From: a virus | Virus record (IMG/VR): IMGVR_UViG_3300045049_000041 | Span: 1 to 22,882 of that record | Reading direction: 5' to 3' (one strand) | DNA length: 22,882 nt | Shown here: piece by piece, positions 820-16,977 of the stretch | Position numbering within the stretch: position 1 is the stretch's first letter | Layout of the letters: each line of letters opens with the position of its first letter | Notes under the pieces: generated by a model | What the model saw: only the letters and a program-made list of their open reading frames with translations | What the model was told of the DNA's origin: nothing | The model's database searches: none | Translations under genes and position numbers: made by a program

Positions 820-1902
820 ATGGCACTCTTTCAGAGAGCAACAAATACCCAAGCTTTTCTAAAGATGGGTCTAATGGGTTTTGCCGGTGATGGTAAGACG
901 TTCACAGCAACTGAAGTCGCAATCGGACTCATCGAGTTGATGCGGCAACGCGGTATTGAGCATGGTGATCGACCTGCCATGTTCCTTGATACTGAGACTG
1001 GATCTGATTGGGTTAAGCCACGATTCGATGCTAGCAATATTGAACTATTTACGGCAAAGACGAGAGCTATGCCTGATCTTAAGTCAGCGATCATCGAAAC
1101 TGAGCAGTCAGGCTCTGTGCTGATCATCGATTCGATTACGCATTTCTGGACAACATTCACGGAGGAATATGCAGAGCGCAGAAATCGCAAGCGTGGTTTG
1201 GAATTCGCTGATTGGGCATTTCTGAAAGCAGAATGGAGAAAATTTACCGACCTATTCGTAAATAGCCAGGCGCATATCATTCTATGTGGCCGTGCTGGAT
1301 ACGAGTACGACTTTTTCGAGGACGACAATGGTAAGCGCCAGCTTGCAAAAACTGGCGTCAAGATGAAGGCTGAAGGAGAAACAGGATATGAGCCTTCAAT
1401 CCTAGTTCAGATGGAGAAGCATCGAGACCTTGACACAGGTAGAGTGTGGCGTACCGCGTTTGTTATCAAAGATAGATCGACTCGCATTGACGGAATGCGT
1501 TTCGAAAACCCTACTTTCAACGATTTCCGACCGCACATTGAATTCTTGAATATTGGCGGAAAGCATACTGGCGTTGATACCACACGTGATAATGGAGAAC
1601 TATTCAGCGATGAAGGCGTGCCACGCTGGATCATGGAAAAACGGGCAAAAGAAATCGCCCTAGATGAGATTGGGGAGGTGATTGGTAAGCATTACCCAGG
1701 CTCAACGGCCGACATGAAGAAAGCTAAGGGCGATCTTCTGGAGGAAATTTTCGGAACTCGTTCTTGGGAGCGTATCAAGACATTCGACTGGCCAACTATC
1801 CAGATCATGCGCGAATCAGTATGGCAGAAGCTAGAGGGACAATCTTACAGGATTGAGAAATCCGTAAGTGAAGAAGAGCACATTGATGATTTGCCTCAGT
1901 AG
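820..1902 (+). CDS. phage P-loop NTPase (AAA_24 / Sak4-like type)
   Basis: A 360-aa protein with Walker A GFAGDGKT at residues 20-27 and Walker B SVLIIDS around 99-105. A conserved acidic DTETGSDW follows strand 2 (57-64). This layout fits the phage nucleotide-binding proteins grouped as AAA_24, and resembles the single-domain RecA-like Sak4 proteins that act with an SSB in phage recombination and replication. The C-terminal third (about 270-360) is charged and mostly helical, with no recognised domain. AAAGGAAA precedes the ATG. It is the largest early gene and presumably the main DNA-metabolism enzyme here. The NTPase call is firm; the recombination role is an inference. Base composition looks richer in A+T than the genes at 2860-3881, suggesting mosaic origin. 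Confidence 0.8.
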   Translation: MALFQRATNTQAFLKMGLMGFAGDGKTFTATEVAIGLIELMRQRGIEHGDRPAMFLDTETGSDWVKPRFDASNIELFTAKTRAMPDLKSAIIETEQSGSVLIIDSITHFWTTFTEEYAERRNRKRGLEFADWAFLKAEWRKFTDLFVNSQAHIILCGRAGYEYDFFEDDNGKRQLAKTGVKMKAEGETGYEPSILVQMEKHRDLDTGRVWRTAFVIKDRSTRIDGMRFENPTFNDFRPHIEFLNIGGKHTGVDTTRDNGELFSDEGVPRWIMEKRAKEIALDEIGEVIGKHYPGSTADMKKAKGDLLEEIFGTRSWERIKTFDWPTIQIMRESVWQKLEGQSYRIEKSVSEEEHIDDLPQ

Positions 1903-4593: not shown

Positions 4594-4618
4594 AAAAGCC
4601 GGCTTATGCCGGCTTTTT
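4594..4618. terminator. bidirectional intrinsic terminator between early and late units
   Basis: AAAAGCCGGC (4594-4603), loop TTAT, then GCCGGCTTTT (4608-4617) forms a perfect ten-pair stem. A T-run follows on the plus strand, and the A-run on the left gives the equivalent on the minus strand. It lies exactly where the rightward early genes and the leftward late genes converge. It also touches the stop codon of the 71-aa minus-strand gene. Confidence 0.9.
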
Positions 4619-4835: not shown

Positions 4836-5366
4836 TTAACCTCGCATATCAGATTGAACGCGTGGATCAGCTTGTGCTTTCCCACGAAAGAATGATGCGA
4901 CACCCAAAATTCCACCTACGGTAAGCGTCAAGTCAGGAGAAAGCGCTACCGGTTGAACATGGAACAGTGGAAGAACCCACATTGCGGCGACATATAGGCC
5001 AAACATAAACCCAATGAATGGACGCCAGCTATAGCTTGGCCAATGATCCTTAGCCGCCTCAATCTGCATCGTCTGGTTCACGGCCTGCACTTGAGCAATA
5101 TCAGCCTGCAGCTCTGCCATCGTCTCATCGTGCGCGAGCTGGGCTAGTTGAAGATGCTGGGACAGTACAGCCTCTTGAAACTTCTGCGCCATCGCTGGGT
5201 CATTCTGTATAGCTGCCACTGCCTGATCGGGATTGCTGGTATTGGTGACGGCCTGTGCAATCCCGACTACTTTTTGCGCTACGTCCTGCGCTTTGCTTCC
5301 GCCCAGCCAGCCGGCTATTGTTGGCGCGAACTGCGCTAACGCCATGCATATGGTAATCGGGTCCAT
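4836..5366 (-). CDS. putative holin (GTA_holin_3TM-like)
   Basis: A 176-aa protein with a hydrophobic N-terminus (about 1-22), a long Gln/Ala-rich, probably coiled-coil segment (about 60-105), then WRPFIGFMFGLYVAAMWVLPLF (about 114-135) and a second membrane segment LTLTVGGILGVASFFRG (about 146-162). The charged helix followed by a WRP motif and two to three membrane segments matches the 3TM holin family of gene transfer agents and many phages. Its ATG overlaps the endolysin stop as TAATG, a typical lysis-cassette junction. It would form the inner-membrane lesion that starts lysis. No spanin (Rz/Rz1) pair is seen. Confidence 0.75.
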   Translation of the reverse strand: MDPITICMALAQFAPTIAGWLGGSKAQDVAQKVVGIAQAVTNTSNPDQAVAAIQNDPAMAQKFQEAVLSQHLQLAQLAHDETMAELQADIAQVQAVNQTMQIEAAKDHWPSYSWRPFIGFMFGLYVAAMWVLPLFHVQPVALSPDLTLTVGGILGVASFFRGKAQADPRVQSDMRG

Positions 5367-5848
5367 TACTCCACCGCCTTCAGCAGATTATTGGCAATGC
5401 GCCGGCTCCAGCCACGGCTAAAAGTCGGCCAAGGATGGCAGCTAGTCAGATAGAGCAGCCGATATGCCGTGAAAGCCATAACGAAACGCAATGGATCAGC
5501 AGCGCGAAGTGCAGACATCGTAGCTGGACCTAGCTTACCATCCGCCTTAACTCCGACCGCCTGCTGTGCCCATAGCACAACATGTCCGCCGTTGTAATTG
5601 GCATCCAGCATGGCAAAGCTCATCCGATCATCAAACTCATCTAGCCTGAGCGGGTCCCAATAAAGCTTTTTAGCCACAGAGCGAGCCGAATCAAGCGGGT
5701 AGTCCCGCATGTCGCCTTGGTAGCCATTGGCACGGGCGACGCGCTGAGTAATCCCCCAGCGTGTTGCGCCGCCTGGATCGGCTGGATTATCGACATACCC
5801 GCCTTCGTTTCCGACAAGAACGGACCATGCCTTATTGAAGTCCGCCAC
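5366..5848 (-). CDS. endolysin, glycoside hydrolase family 108 muramidase
   Basis: A 160-aa protein with NEGGYVDNPADPGGATRWGI at about 14-33. This is the signature of the GH108 lysozyme-like family, and Glu15 in EGGY is the expected catalytic acid. Residues about 78-120 (MLDANYNGGHVVLWAQQAVG, then DGKLGPAT) match the associated peptidoglycan-binding domain (PG_binding_3). It would cleave the glycan strands of peptidoglycan. There is no signal peptide, so release should depend on the holin. The start is GTG with a weak ribosome site, four bases downstream of the previous stop, so translation is probably coupled to the 65-aa gene. Confidence 0.9.
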   Translation of the reverse strand: MADFNKAWSVLVGNEGGYVDNPADPGGATRWGITQRVARANGYQGDMRDYPLDSARSVAKKLYWDPLRLDEFDDRMSFAMLDANYNGGHVVLWAQQAVGVKADGKLGPATMSALRAADPLRFVMAFTAYRLLYLTSCHPWPTFSRGWSRRIANNLLKAVE

Positions 5849-5851
5849 GTC

Positions 5852-6049
5852 TTAGAGGCTTTTCGAGCCGAGCAGGAAGGCCGCCTTTACCTTCTCTTCC
5901 GCGCTAGTGGCGTCATTGATGATTGCATCTAGCGCGTGATGCATTGCGCCGAGAGTAAAAGCGGCCTCGATGCGCTCTTCTACTGAACGGGCATCTTGCT
6001 TCAGCATTTCAATCTCGTTATGTGCGCGGTTCTTAATGGAATCAAACAT
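5852..6049 (-). CDS. 65-aa protein with internal duplication, upstream of endolysin
   Basis: ATG at 6049 with a strong AAGGAG site. The sequence contains two matching segments 27 residues apart: SVEERIEAAFTLGAMHH (22-38) and SAEEKVKAAFLLGSKSL (49-65). This suggests two copies of a short helix, perhaps a helical hairpin. There is no membrane segment or signal. It sits at the head of the lysis genes and its translation probably feeds the weak GTG start of the endolysin. A role in lysis timing is possible but nothing in the sequence shows it directly. Confidence 0.6.
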   Translation of the reverse strand: MFDSIKNRAHNEIEMLKQDARSVEERIEAAFTLGAMHHALDAIINDATSAEEKVKAAFLLGSKSL

Positions 6050-6078
6050 TTTTAGCTCCTTTTAGCGTGGTACTAGCA

Positions 6079-6087
6079 TGATATGCT
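6079..6087 (+). promoter_or_regulatory. extended -10 promoter for the protease gene
   Basis: TG-A-TATGCT matches the extended -10 form (TGnTATAAT, with TATGCT as a four-of-six box). The -35 region is poor, as often in extended -10 promoters. An alternative -10, TATATT, lies at 6089-6094. Transcription would start near 6094, about 25 bases before the protease ATG, giving this plus-strand gene its own expression. Confidence 0.4.
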
Positions 6088-6118
6088 CTATATTGGCATT
6101 TCGCCACTAGGAGATATC

Positions 6119-7273
6119 ATGCCTGTAGAAAACTATGCGATTGTTGACGATATCAACAATTCAGCCGGAATAAATCACGCTTCAGTGGTAGAGGGAACGA
6201 TTGAGCACTATCTCGAACTCTACGGCGATACCGGCAACGTAAGCGCTAGCGCACAGTTTCCGCAACCGTCTGGTGGCAATATGGGTGTTTGCTACACGAC
6301 GGCGACTGCAAGCGCTGCGACCGTGGAAAACAACAGTTGGGGCAGCCCTGGCACGATGGCACTTGGCACGCTGCAGACATCGTATCCGAGCGACAATACT
6401 AATCTCGAAAATGCCTTCCTGGCTAATAAGACGCTTGTATTCGCAGCCGGAAATTGGGGATCTGGCAATTCGAATAATATCGACGTAGAGTGCTCCTCTT
6501 CTTGGACGATCAACGTCAGCGCAGCGGACGACATCGGAAGCGGCTCGCTCGGTAATCTTACCTATTACAGCTACGCTAATCCGGGTCTAACCAACTATGT
6601 GATGAGCGGGCAAGCTGTGAACTCAACGATGGTTGGCACAAGCTTTGCCGCCCCGCGCTTGTCAGCGCTAGCGCTCATCCTGCAAGCACAGCACAATAAC
6701 CAATTGACGCAATCTGAGATTCACACGCTGCTAGACACTTACAGTGATGGTGTGAACCTGACGCAAGATGCTCAAGGTGGCGGTAGTGTGGCCGCCGCTG
6801 GTAATTTCGTGTGGCATCGTATCGATGACGCCACGTTCGGCCGTATCGTCAATGCATCCGCTAGCTATGTGCCGGGCACCGTTAACACCACAACACAAGC
6901 CGAAGGGCTGTATGCGCTTGAACTTGACCGCGTTGGGGATTCTGGTGGCGTTGCGTGGTTGGCGGGTGTTATCGCGTCGCAAGGTATTGCACAAGCAGCA
7001 GCGGACCTCAAGGGAAGCGCTGAATACCAGACGGTAAGCCAACACCAATTCAACAACGTCACACTGTTTGAAAAAGTGCAGGCGCTATATCACGACGGCC
7101 TTGGCCGCGAGTCGGACGATGGTGGTATGGCCTACTGGCTAAATCGCGTCGTCAGCGATCATCTACCTAACTTCAATCAGATTTCCTCAACCGGCCAATT
7201 CATCGATCTGCATCAATACTATGCAGCATTCTTTGGGGCTGCCGGAGTCGCACAGCCCACATGGCTAAGTTAA
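6119..7273 (+). CDS. subtilisin-like serine protease with C-terminal DUF4214 region
   Basis: I chose the ATG at 6119 because TAGGAGA lies seven bases upstream; an in-frame ATG at 6083 lacks a site. The 384-aa product has subtilase (S8) hallmarks: GTSFAAP at 173-179 with nucleophile Ser175, AAGN at 109-112 with oxyanion-hole Asn112, and NNSWG at 71-75. Asp10 in AIVDD and His20 in NHASVVEG are the likely remaining triad members, though their spacing is much shorter than in classical subtilisins. The C-terminal part holds two DUF4214-like units, one from about 264 (LYALELDRVGDSGGVAWLAG) and one from about 323 (LYHDGLGRESDDGGMAYWL); that domain is typical of secreted bacterial surface proteins. 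No signal peptide is present. The gene is read opposite to the late genes around it, as a moron. The substrate is unknown. Confidence 0.8.
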   Translation: MPVENYAIVDDINNSAGINHASVVEGTIEHYLELYGDTGNVSASAQFPQPSGGNMGVCYTTATASAATVENNSWGSPGTMALGTLQTSYPSDNTNLENAFLANKTLVFAAGNWGSGNSNNIDVECSSSWTINVSAADDIGSGSLGNLTYYSYANPGLTNYVMSGQAVNSTMVGTSFAAPRLSALALILQAQHNNQLTQSEIHTLLDTYSDGVNLTQDAQGGGSVAAAGNFVWHRIDDATFGRIVNASASYVPGTVNTTTQAEGLYALELDRVGDSGGVAWLAGVIASQGIAQAAADLKGSAEYQTVSQHQFNNVTLFEKVQALYHDGLGRESDDGGMAYWLNRVVSDHLPNFNQISSTGQFIDLHQYYAAFFGAAGVAQPTWLS

Positions 7274-7614
7274 GTTCCGATCGGATATGCTGGCATTGTC
7301 GGTAGCGTTGACTGCGTGCCGTTCACCACGGCGCGCAGGTTCATCCTATAGGATTGCCAGATAGTCGGAACGGGTACGCCGGCCGAATAGCAGCGCAGAA
7401 CGACTCTATCTGATTGCTCAAGGAGTGCTTTTGCTTGAAGCGCAAGAATCTCCTGCGCTTTGGCAGATGCATTCGGGTCAGGTCCGAAGACGGAACCATT
7501 CCATGTTCCCCCGATGATGCAACCTGAAGCAAAGGGAATCCACGAAGCATCAAGCGCGTGCTCGGCCTCTGCGATGTTGACCACAATGCCGTTTTGTACG
7601 ATTGCGAACTGCAT
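7270..7614 (-). CDS. small tail-fibre-associated protein
   Basis: The ATG at 7614 overlaps the tail-fibre stop as TAATG, with GGGGAG upstream. The 114-aa product begins MQFAIVQNGIVVNIAEAE, followed by SWIPFASGCIIGGTWNGSVF. Proteins with this opening (a short beta strand reporting on 'I-V-x-N-G-x-V-x-N') are regularly found right after tail-fibre genes and are annotated as tail-fibre assembly or tail proteins. The role here rests on that position and pattern. Its stop codon overlaps the protease stop codon on the opposite strand by three bases. Confidence 0.6.
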   Translation of the reverse strand: MQFAIVQNGIVVNIAEAEHALDASWIPFASGCIIGGTWNGSVFGPDPNASAKAQEILALQAKALLEQSDRVVLRCYSAGVPVPTIWQSYRMNLRAVVNGTQSTLPTMPAYPIGT

Positions 7615-9473
7615 TAGATCACTCCCCAAATACGTAGTTCACCACGCGCCCCGGCTCCGCTGGATGTGCCTTGACTGCCACCTCCTCCACCGGCTGGAGC
7701 ACTTCCCGCTGTAGCTGCGCCACTCGTCGCACCTGCTCCGCCTGCACCCCCATTTTGGCTTGTGCCTGCTGTTGTTAGAGCGTTAGAGCTATTTACTCCT
7801 CCGCCTGATCCGCCACCATAAAGAGAATTTCCCGCAACAGCATCAGTACCATTGGAGGCGTATCCTCCCGCATATGTACCGTTAACATTGTTACCAGATC
7901 CAGCGGATGAATAATAGACTGATTCAAAGCCATAACTTCCATTCTCTGGAGCTATAGCTGTACGGCGAAGCTGACGGGTACCTACTTTCAAAGAACCAGG
8001 CCATTGGCCAGCTTGAGCCCCTGAGACTGTAAACCAATTGCCAAAACTCGTATCGCCACCTGAATTACCTGTACCAGCAGAAGATATAGCAGCACCACCA
8101 GCACCAATAGTTATCGTTTCCGATGAAGCTAGACCAGAGGCCAAAAGTTTAAATGGGAAACTACCACCACCATGTCCGCCTGGAGCAGCAGTTCCTGCTG
8201 AAGACAAATTACCACTTGCCCCACCAGACCAGGCCATGCCCTCAAAATATTGATATCCAGGGGACTTATTAAACGTGCCGGATGAGGTATACGTCATGTA
8301 AAACGGTTGAAGCACAATCGAGTAGCATGAGGTGCCGTCGCTGACGATGAGCCGCGCTTCATTCGGGTAGCTGATAAAGCTATTTACGCCGTCAATCGTC
8401 TCCGCCGCGTTCATCTGGAACGTAATTGGCTGACCACTGCTATTGCGAGTGTAGACAAACCATCCATTACCCAACGTGGCATTGGCGGAGAAGGTCTGCG
8501 TGAAGGGACCCGCGGTAAAATCGATCAGTGTGGAATTATCTGCGACGCCTAGAATCGTATTGGAGCTGCGAGGGCTTCTCTTAACTGAGGCAGCCGTTGC
8601 CTGAGGACTAAGATGTACAATCGTGGAATAGAGCGCTGTCCCATCAGTAAAGACTAGTCGCACTTCCCCAGGAAGCATCGTGGCACTAGATGCGCCGTCG
8701 ATGGTTTCAACACCGTTCGGCTGCAGCATAATGTTTCCAGAGCCGTTGTTATTGCGCACATAGACAAACCATCCGTTCGTCAGCGATGCACTAGCGGAGA
8801 ACGTCTGCGTAAACAGGGCGTTGATGTCAATGAACGTCGAATCATCTGCATAGGCAAGCACAGTGTTACTCGTTCGAGGACTGCGCTTGATCGTAGAGGG
8901 CAAGCCTGGATGGATCACAACGGAATACAGCGCTGTGCCATCACAGAAGACAAGGCGCGTTTCAGTCGGCAGGACGGTTGCCGAAGATGCGCCGTCGATG
9001 GTTTCGCCGCCGTTCGGTTGCAAGGTAATGGCTGAGCTTGCATCATTGCGGATATAGCAGGACCATCCGTTTCCTAGCGTCGCGCTCGCTACGAACGTTT
9101 GCGTGAAGACGTTTTGAACTTCAATGAAGGTCGAGTTGTCTTCTACAGCTAGGGCTGTATTCGAGGTACGAGGACTGCGAACGATGGTGAAGCCAGATGT
9201 TCCACTACCGGAACTGGTCTGCTGGTCCCAGATCGTATTACCTGCTGAGTCCTTGACGATCTGGCGGAAGTCTCCCGCCCCCCAGATCACCGCACGGCCT
9301 GCAGAGTCCAGAACTACCGGATTGGTGTTCAGGATAGTCAGCGCTTCGTCCTGGTAAGTATTCTTGAACGTGGTAGTGTTAGGAATGTAGAAGGTGACGC
9401 TACCGCCGTTCAGCGGTACGCCATTATTATCAAAGAACTGTTGTTTGCCATTCGGCAGCGGCAGAGCGGCCAT
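7614..9473 (-). CDS. tail fibre with three repeated modules and a glycine-rich tip
   Basis: A 619-aa protein. Residues 1-90 (LPLPNGKQQFFDNNGVPLNG, then ILNTNPVVLDSAGRAVIW) form the conserved N-terminal domain that attaches many podovirus fibres to the tail. Three modules of about 92 residues follow (about 99-190, 197-288, 298-391), each opening with RSPR(T/S)SNT and containing FTQTF, GNGW or TNGW, ETIDG and DGT. From about 413 to the end the protein is very Gly/Ser/Ala-rich, with GGGSGGG and GGAGGAGA runs, closing with GARGELRIWGVI. Gly-rich tips that fold as packed polyglycine helices are known in phage receptor adhesins, so the C-terminus is the likely receptor-binding part. AAGGA precedes the ATG. 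Confidence 0.85.
   Translation of the reverse strand: MAALPLPNGKQQFFDNNGVPLNGGSVTFYIPNTTTFKNTYQDEALTILNTNPVVLDSAGRAVIWGAGDFRQIVKDSAGNTIWDQQTSSGSGTSGFTIVRSPRTSNTALAVEDNSTFIEVQNVFTQTFVASATLGNGWSCYIRNDASSAITLQPNGGETIDGASSATVLPTETRLVFCDGTALYSVVIHPGLPSTIKRSPRTSNTVLAYADDSTFIDINALFTQTFSASASLTNGWFVYVRNNNGSGNIMLQPNGVETIDGASSATMLPGEVRLVFTDGTALYSTIVHLSPQATAASVKRSPRSSNTILGVADNSTLIDFTAGPFTQTFSANATLGNGWFVYTRNSSGQPITFQMNAAETIDGVNSFISYPNEARLIVSDGTSCYSIVLQPFYMTYTSSGTFNKSPGYQYFEGMAWSGGASGNLSSAGTAAPGGHGGGSFPFKLLASGLASSETITIGAGGAAISSAGTGNSGGDTSFGNWFTVSGAQAGQWPGSLKVGTRQLRRTAIAPENGSYGFESVYYSSAGSGNNVNGTYAGGYASNGTDAVAGNSLYGGGSGGGVNSSNALTTAGTSQNGGAGGAGATSGAATAGSAPAGGGGGSQGTSSGAGARGELRIWGVI
8301..9179 (-). repeat. three tandem modules of about 92 codons in the tail fibre
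   Basis: The modules lie at about 9179-8904, 8885-8610 and 8582-8301. Similarity is visible in the DNA: the bases around 8693 and 8990 share GCGCCGTCGATGGTTTC. The first two modules are closer to each other than to the third. The linkers between modules are short, 6 and 9 residues. Confidence 0.8.
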
Positions 9474-16446: not shown

Positions 16447-16977
16447 TTATTCCTTTGCCTTAGTTCTGTTGTTTCCTGAAAATTCGCCGTAATGCGTGGC
16501 CCTTGCCAACTCTGCTACCTTACCGGCTTCTTCAGGAGAATCAAAGACGCCGAGATGCTTGTTCTTACCATTAATGCAGATAGAAGCTATCCACTTCTCT
16601 CGGCCAGTATGCTTGGTGACACCACGGAAACCAGACTTGTTCCGCTTACTCAGTCCAGCATTTTTTCCGTTTTCGCTCTTCTTGCAGTCTCGCAAATTAG
16701 CGAAGCGATTGTCAGCCTTATTCCCGTTTATATGGTCGATTTCACCTTTAGGTTCTTCGCCAGTCATGTAGAACCATGCCAGACGATGAGCTTTATATCG
16801 CACACCAGAAACCGTAATCACAACATATCCGTTGGATGGGTCCACTCCACCCGCTTTACATCCTGAATGGCGTCCACCCATCCCTCCGAATCCTTCATTC
16901 CATGTGAAGAATCCGGTTTCTTGATCATATGAAAGTTGGGCTTTGAGCGCAGAAATCACAGGCATTTTCAATGTCAT
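16447..16977 (-). CDS. HNH homing endonuclease with AP2 DNA-binding domain
   Basis: A 176-aa protein. HRLAWFYMTGEEPKGEIDHI (64-83), then NGNKADNRFANLR, is the HNH core, with the Asp81-His82 pair, Asn90 and Asn94 as the expected metal-site and structural residues. NKSGFRGVTKHTGREKWIAS (113-132), followed by HLGVFDSPEEAGKVAE, is an AP2 domain. This is the common free-standing phage homing endonuclease, which cuts related genomes lacking it and spreads by repair. It stands alone between two virion genes, with a 55-base non-coding gap upstream, as expected for an inserted selfish gene. The neighbouring genes look intact. GGGGAT serves as ribosome site. Confidence 0.9.
   Translation of the reverse strand: MTLKMPVISALKAQLSYDQETGFFTWNEGFGGMGGRHSGCKAGGVDPSNGYVVITVSGVRYKAHRLAWFYMTGEEPKGEIDHINGNKADNRFANLRDCKKSENGKNAGLSKRNKSGFRGVTKHTGREKWIASICINGKNKHLGVFDSPEEAGKVAELARATHYGEFSGNNRTKAKE

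Follow-up and report, generated by a model that had tools for sequence, protein, structure and literature searches.

A gene encoding a compact subtilisin-like protease with two C-terminal DUF4214 units was found in a 22,882-base virus record, IMGVR_UViG_3300045049_000041, the whole of which is herein referred to as the window. In our preferred reading, to which we assign a probability of about 0.55, the product is a moron-type accessory protease with its own promoter that cuts a particular protein in the infected cell or in the cell envelope, is guided by DUF4214, and is not structural. This reading is based on the gene itself, its domains, their conservation, the predicted fold, the alternative genomic sites, and purifying selection between two relatives. 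The S8 + DUF4214 protein is a new and testable phage accessory enzyme, the subtilisin type itself being known.

Locus of the protease gene

The late genes of the window are located on the minus strand, opposite to the protease gene, and encode a major head protein, a P22-type head closure protein, tail proteins, a 705-aa protein with a transglycosylase, a tail fibre, a tail-assembly-like protein, a GH108 endolysin, and a GTA-type holin. The protease ORF is intact, encoding 384 aa with no internal stops. The ORF map and the Pfam matches agree with the sequence-only reading, which had placed the gene between the tail-fibre and lysis genes and against the late strand. Homologues of this gene are present in G001 and G002, two IMG/VR genomes that are close relatives of the window phage. 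The features of the locus are as follows:

4594..4617, plus strand: terminator-like stem-loop at the convergence of the early and late operons; the same position holds the protease gene in G001 and G002
4836-5848, minus strand: GH108 endolysin/holin pair on one flank of the protease gene
5852..6049, minus strand: small gene B, separating the insert from the endolysin; it adjoins gene A in G001, where the insert is absent
6077..6088, plus strand: extended -10 element CATGATATGCTC; conserved in G001 and G002, where it precedes the homologous gene
6079-6087, plus strand: extended -10 sequence TGATATGCT, seen in the window
6109..6113, plus strand: AGGAG ribosome-binding site, seen in the sequence
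6119..7273, plus strand: protease gene (384 aa), with a compact Peptidase_S8 domain and two DUF4214 units (ORF, Pfam, and model)
7270..7629, minus strand: gene A, tail-assembly-chaperone-like by a weak Pfam match, flanking the protease gene; their stop codons overlap
7270-9473, minus strand: tail-fibre/tail-assembly pair on the other flank

The compared head, tail, and lysis proteins of the window phage are mostly 84-99% identical to those of G001 and G002, and gene A is more variable (43-45% identity). In G001, genes A and B are adjacent, ~15 bases apart, and the insert site of the window is empty; an extra gene missing from its site in a close relative is what is expected of a moron, and the proposed moron-like insertion between tail and lysis genes was thus borne out. 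In both G001 and G002, the protease gene is located at the convergence of the early and late operons, where the window has the terminator-like hairpin only. The GC content of the protease gene is 0.531, like that of its neighbours. Atypical base composition is a common but not necessary mark of morons. Overall, the protease gene is a moron-like accessory gene. A role in a lysogen had also been suggested; it is unsupported, since the related genomes yielded neither a tyrosine integrase nor a serine recombinase, the window itself being a fragment. One match to a transcriptional regulator and one to a PHROG named RDF were found in G001; the protein with the latter match is, as we read its sequence, presumably a small lipoprotein, and the name is treated with caution.

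The window, G001, and G002 each contain a single copy of the 12-mer CATGATATGCTC, located 30-33 bp upstream of the start codon. By our own arithmetic, the chance of a 12-mer being common to two unrelated 60-base stretches is roughly 1e-4; the shared 12-mer would also be expected if the inserts had a common ancestor. In pattern scans, promoter-like sites were no commoner in the window than expected by chance. The idea that the gene has its own promoter and ribosome site is thus supported by the conservation of the 12-mer and not by the pattern scan. Upstream of the G004 allele, a terminator-like hairpin, TGGTATAAT, and a ribosome site follow in this order. No convincing terminator was found directly downstream of the protease gene in the window. 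In G003, the protease gene is located directly after the holin gene on the same (late) strand, which suggests late expression and co-transcription with the holin gene; therefore, the timing of expression may differ among phages. An alternative start at 6083 was rejected, being inside the conserved -10 element; the homologues start at the position corresponding to 6119.

Domains, catalytic residues, and predicted structure

Both domains of the window protein scored above the Pfam cut-offs, confirming the proposed S8 + DUF4214 fusion. Peptidase_S8 (PF00082) was found with E 2e-8 and 34.5 bits (cut-off 21.8), the match spanning only profile positions 104-273 of 288, and DUF4214 (PF13946) with E 4e-5 and a marginal 24.0 bits (cut-off 23.2). 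Most homologues have higher scores: 42-46 bits for S8 and 39-41 bits for DUF4214 in G001, G002, and G004 (41.3 bits for DUF4214 in G001), and both DUF4214 units are scored in the close homologues. The residues and units of the protein are encoded as follows:

6146..6148, plus strand: Asp10, catalytic Asp, the last residue of predicted strand 6-10; aligned in 40/40 viral S8 domains
6176..6178, plus strand: His20, catalytic His (HGT motif), with which predicted helix 20-34 begins; aligned in 40/40
6452..6454, plus strand: Asn112, oxyanion-hole Asn; aligned in 40/40
6641..6643, plus strand: Ser175, nucleophile (GTSFAAP motif), where predicted helix 174-191 starts; aligned in 40/40
6827..7240, plus strand: two helical DUF4214 units, residues ~237-305 and ~316-374 (Pfam, close homologues, and model)

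In alignments made under three MAFFT settings, Asp10, His20, Ser73, Asn112, and Ser175 share their columns with the canonical residues of all 40 canonical viral S8 domains, which were gathered via an unrelated motif, and Ser73 is the substrate-binding Ser by this alignment. The motifs NNSWG, AAGN, and GTSFAAP are all present, and the earlier assignments of Ser175, Asn112, and NNSWG are therefore upheld. The protein thus has the Asp, His, Ser order with GTSxAxP, the oxyanion Asn, and the substrate-binding Ser of S8 peptidases. Asp10, Asp11, His20, Asn112, and Ser175 are invariant in the proteins of the window and of G001, G002, G003, and G004, with ~40% identity among four alleles. By these residues, the window protein is probably an active protease.

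The spacing between the catalytic Asp and His is 10 in the window protein versus 23-106 in 85 canonical viral subtilases, a sample selected by the motif GTSMAxPHV and no census. This agrees with the short Asp10-His20 spacing and reduced N-terminal subdomain noticed from the sequence. The shortened segment raises the question of the minimal size of a subtilisin.

An AlphaFold (AF2) model of the window protein, built on an alignment of 49 sequences, has a mean pLDDT of 84.4 and a pTM of 0.90; an earlier prediction from three sequences (pLDDT 36) was discarded. The S8 part of the model benefits from the 40 canonical S8 sequences that the alignment included, and the model is thus not a fully independent proof. 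In the Foldseek search, the model matched subtilisin BPN' and its engineered derivatives (best E 3e-8, probability 1.00), with a TM-score by target length of ~0.5-0.6 for subtilisins. Strand 6-10 ends with Asp10, helix 20-34 starts with His20, and helix 174-191 has Ser175 near its beginning, so that in the predicted structure these residues take the positions expected for a subtilisin; judged by secondary structure and the Foldseek scores, the case that would have spoken against the assignment, Asp10 and His20 far from Ser175, did not arise. The S8 domain is followed by two helical bundles (~237-305 and ~316-374).

The N-terminal propeptide is absent, the first strand beginning at residue 6 of the model, and no signal peptide was seen in most family members. 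The window protein therefore does not have the signal peptide plus N-terminal propeptide of a classical secreted subtilisin. The close homologues share the N-terminal start position, with an in-frame stop 7-15 codons upstream. A truncated host gene, i.e., a fragment of a longer gene with a displaced N-terminus, is thereby ruled out.

Among known systems, the subtilases (MEROPS S8, PF00082; BPN', Tk-subtilisin) share with the window protein the catalytic order, the substrate-binding Ser, the oxyanion Asn, GTSxAxP, and the predicted fold; the window protein differs from them in the spacing given above for viral S8 proteins and in lacking a propeptide. Bacillus phage vB_BcoS-136 'subtilisin DY' and the Lactococcus phage AM4 protease are phage-borne S8 proteins whose fold matches the window model. 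Three other family members match the phage S8 proteins of PHROG 3677 ('protease'), whereas the window protein has no PHROG match better than E 0.049. The IetS subtilase of the IetAS anti-phage system (PADLOC) also has an S8 domain and gave weak matches (E down to 3e-4), with only the Ser-motif region matched in the window protein.

Distribution and genomic positions of the family

In total, the family includes nine records, eight of them full-length: the window and eight other uncultured phage contigs, of which seven have full-length members. The S8 + DUF4214 architecture ranges from podoviruses to T4-like contigs. The DUF4214 pair scored above the cut-off in the close group and was weakly detected, yet alignable, in G005, G006, and G008. 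Single-sequence scans of viral and genome contigs found no relatives, whereas alignment-based and motif scans of viral contigs succeeded. The homologues in G003 and G004 were found by alignment-based scans. The motif scan (GTSFAAPR, with Ala two residues on) yielded eight contigs only, all belonging to the family: G001-G004 and the more distant G005-G008. A seven-member profile had one match in each of these eight contigs; six of these matches were there by construction, and only those in G007 (a fragment) and G008 are independent. No bacterial relative of the family was found in the genome contigs by the single-sequence scan or a later one.

In tblastn searches of 50,697 phage records, the window protein had no match at E <= 0.01 and three other family members had none at E <= 1. 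Among viral structure models, phage or giant-virus S8 proteins were matched by Foldseek, and none matched the S8 and DUF4214 parts together. The earlier remark that no phage protein of this architecture has been described thus holds for these phage records and viral structure models. No further S8 or DUF4214 proteins were found in the podovirus relatives, and no other DUF4214 proteins in the phages studied here.

The window protease is 40% identical to the versions in G001 and G002, 39.9% to that in G003, and 38.1% to that in G004; the proteases of the close relatives are thus no nearer to it than those of more distant phages (38-40%). The genomic positions also differ. Elsewhere in the family, the gene is located between a RusA-like gene and the terminase genes in G004, near mazG in G005, after the DNA ligase gene in G006, and between nrdA and COQ7-like genes in G008. 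The different loci together with ~40% identity fit repeated independent acquisition of an accessory gene, and the presence of a small propeptide-free subtilisin at differing loci in unrelated phages suggests a recurrent benefit. For the G001 and G002 copies, dN/dS is 0.056, and the gene is therefore considered to be under purifying selection between these two genomes.

Possible roles of the protease

Phage accessory proteases are little studied. From the above we infer proteolytic activity, use of the promoter, a role for DUF4214, a target, and a place of action for the window protein. Transcription by host RNA polymerase would start at the extended -10 promoter of the gene itself and would not depend on the late operon, and the product would be a compact subtilisin (Asp10/His20/Ser175; Asn112 in the oxyanion hole) that has no propeptide and is ready as made. 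The C-terminal DUF4214 pair may provide recognition or tethering, so that cleavage is directed at one particular protein, either within the infected cell or in the cell envelope. In this way, the protease would contribute to host takeover, counter-defence, or exclusion without being a structural component of virions; such a component would not be expected from the putative independent promoters or from where the diverged members are located. The link between DUF4214 and a catalytic domain in a phage family offers a way to test DUF4214 binding. Several points are against this explanation: the late-strand position in G003, a lipobox (LLLAAC) in the G005 member, the ordinary base composition, and the chance-level promoter scan in the window. 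Additionally, a free subtilisin lacking a propeptide could be toxic to the producing cell. A bolder version, which we regard as a tentative possibility, is that these proteins form an undescribed phage protease family, each a minimal propeptide-free subtilisin that DUF4214 guides to a particular defence or surface protein of the host, which it destroys, and that the promoter and gene are exchanged as a cassette between unrelated phages.

Second to host-directed action we place extracellular action, which is rather unlikely. The protease would be released at lysis or exported by a host type I secretion system and would degrade extracellular or surface proteins, such as the S-layer, adhesins, the biofilm matrix, or the receptors of competing phages. 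DUF4214 has been described from surface proteins, and we know of no function for it; bacterial proteins with this domain have received little study. In one plasmid, a DUF4214 gene adjoins that of an HlyD-type type I secretion adaptor, and the DUF4214 protein Halo4214 has been argued to be an anchored extracellular protein (PMC11970703). The protease gene is located near the lysis cassette in the window, G001, G002, and G003. The G005 lipobox points to the envelope for that member only, whereas neither a signal peptide nor an RTX-like repeat was seen in most members; proteins with no signal peptide could act in the cytoplasm, be released at lysis, or be exported by type I secretion. No ABC/HlyD neighbours or RTX repeats were noticed in a reading of the ORF list of the window. 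The putative own promoters also point outside the lysis programme, and the diverged members are located in metabolic gene clusters.

A virion-associated or injected protease that aids envelope crossing and is held in the particle by DUF4214 is improbable. The pair of DUF4214 units is not foreign to phage virions, as had been supposed: such a pair was found by Pfam at the end of a siphovirus-like tape-measure protein (TMP_3; L014:3096-8429). In addition, the insert adjoins tail genes, and G005, along with its compact S8 protein, has another S8 domain, of the canonical type, within a 922-aa protein of the tail region (L028:1-1647; G005:14794-15840). Against this stand the strand opposite to the structural genes, the candidate promoter, the empty site in a close relative, the absence of another DUF4214 partner protein in the related genomes, and the metabolic and replication gene clusters in which the diverged members are located.

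A diverged branch of the family has Glu instead of the catalytic Asp (IMETPFNG) and may be inactive by its sequence. Its copies are as follows:

L031:877-2016: Glu-for-Asp copy
L027:7382-8119: Glu-for-Asp copy
L161:9444-10580: Glu-for-Asp copy of G008

This branch (G006, G007, and G008), in which Pro is found at the aligned His position in G008 and a different His (YAYHG) is conserved throughout, would fit a binding protein on a subtilisin scaffold that has lost cleavage, an explanation to which we give little credence, ranking it last with the virion component, since the window allele and its close group, at ~40% identity, show no change in any catalytic residue.

A tape-measure protein similar to that of L014 was found in another contig (L015:3279-8429). 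The tandem units of the tape-measure C-terminus and of EBPR siphovirus 2 gp15 (L167:3915-5198; two N-terminal DUF4214 units) resemble those of the window protein, whereas no S8 domain was found in these proteins. Having no Pfam peptidase domain, gp15 was set aside as a relative, and its 'protease' annotation looks doubtful. In the G008 contig, the COQ7-like ubiquinone biosynthesis gene (L161:11691-12224) adjoins a cytochrome-c-like gene.

A match of the window to Klebsiella phage S9a, of just 107 bases in the region of the endolysin and small gene, was ignored. An HNH-type endonuclease-like ORF (16447-16977, minus strand) is located amid the structural genes, with no matching stretch in G001 or G002. 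A Sak4-like ATPase is encoded at 820-1902 (plus strand), where the close relatives have genes that we take from their sequences to be RecT-like and YqaJ-like; the recombination module seems to have been swapped between the window phage and these relatives. The tail fibre (7614-9473, minus strand) has three tandem repeats of ~95 aa each (RSPRTSNT...LYS), which also align out of register between relatives.
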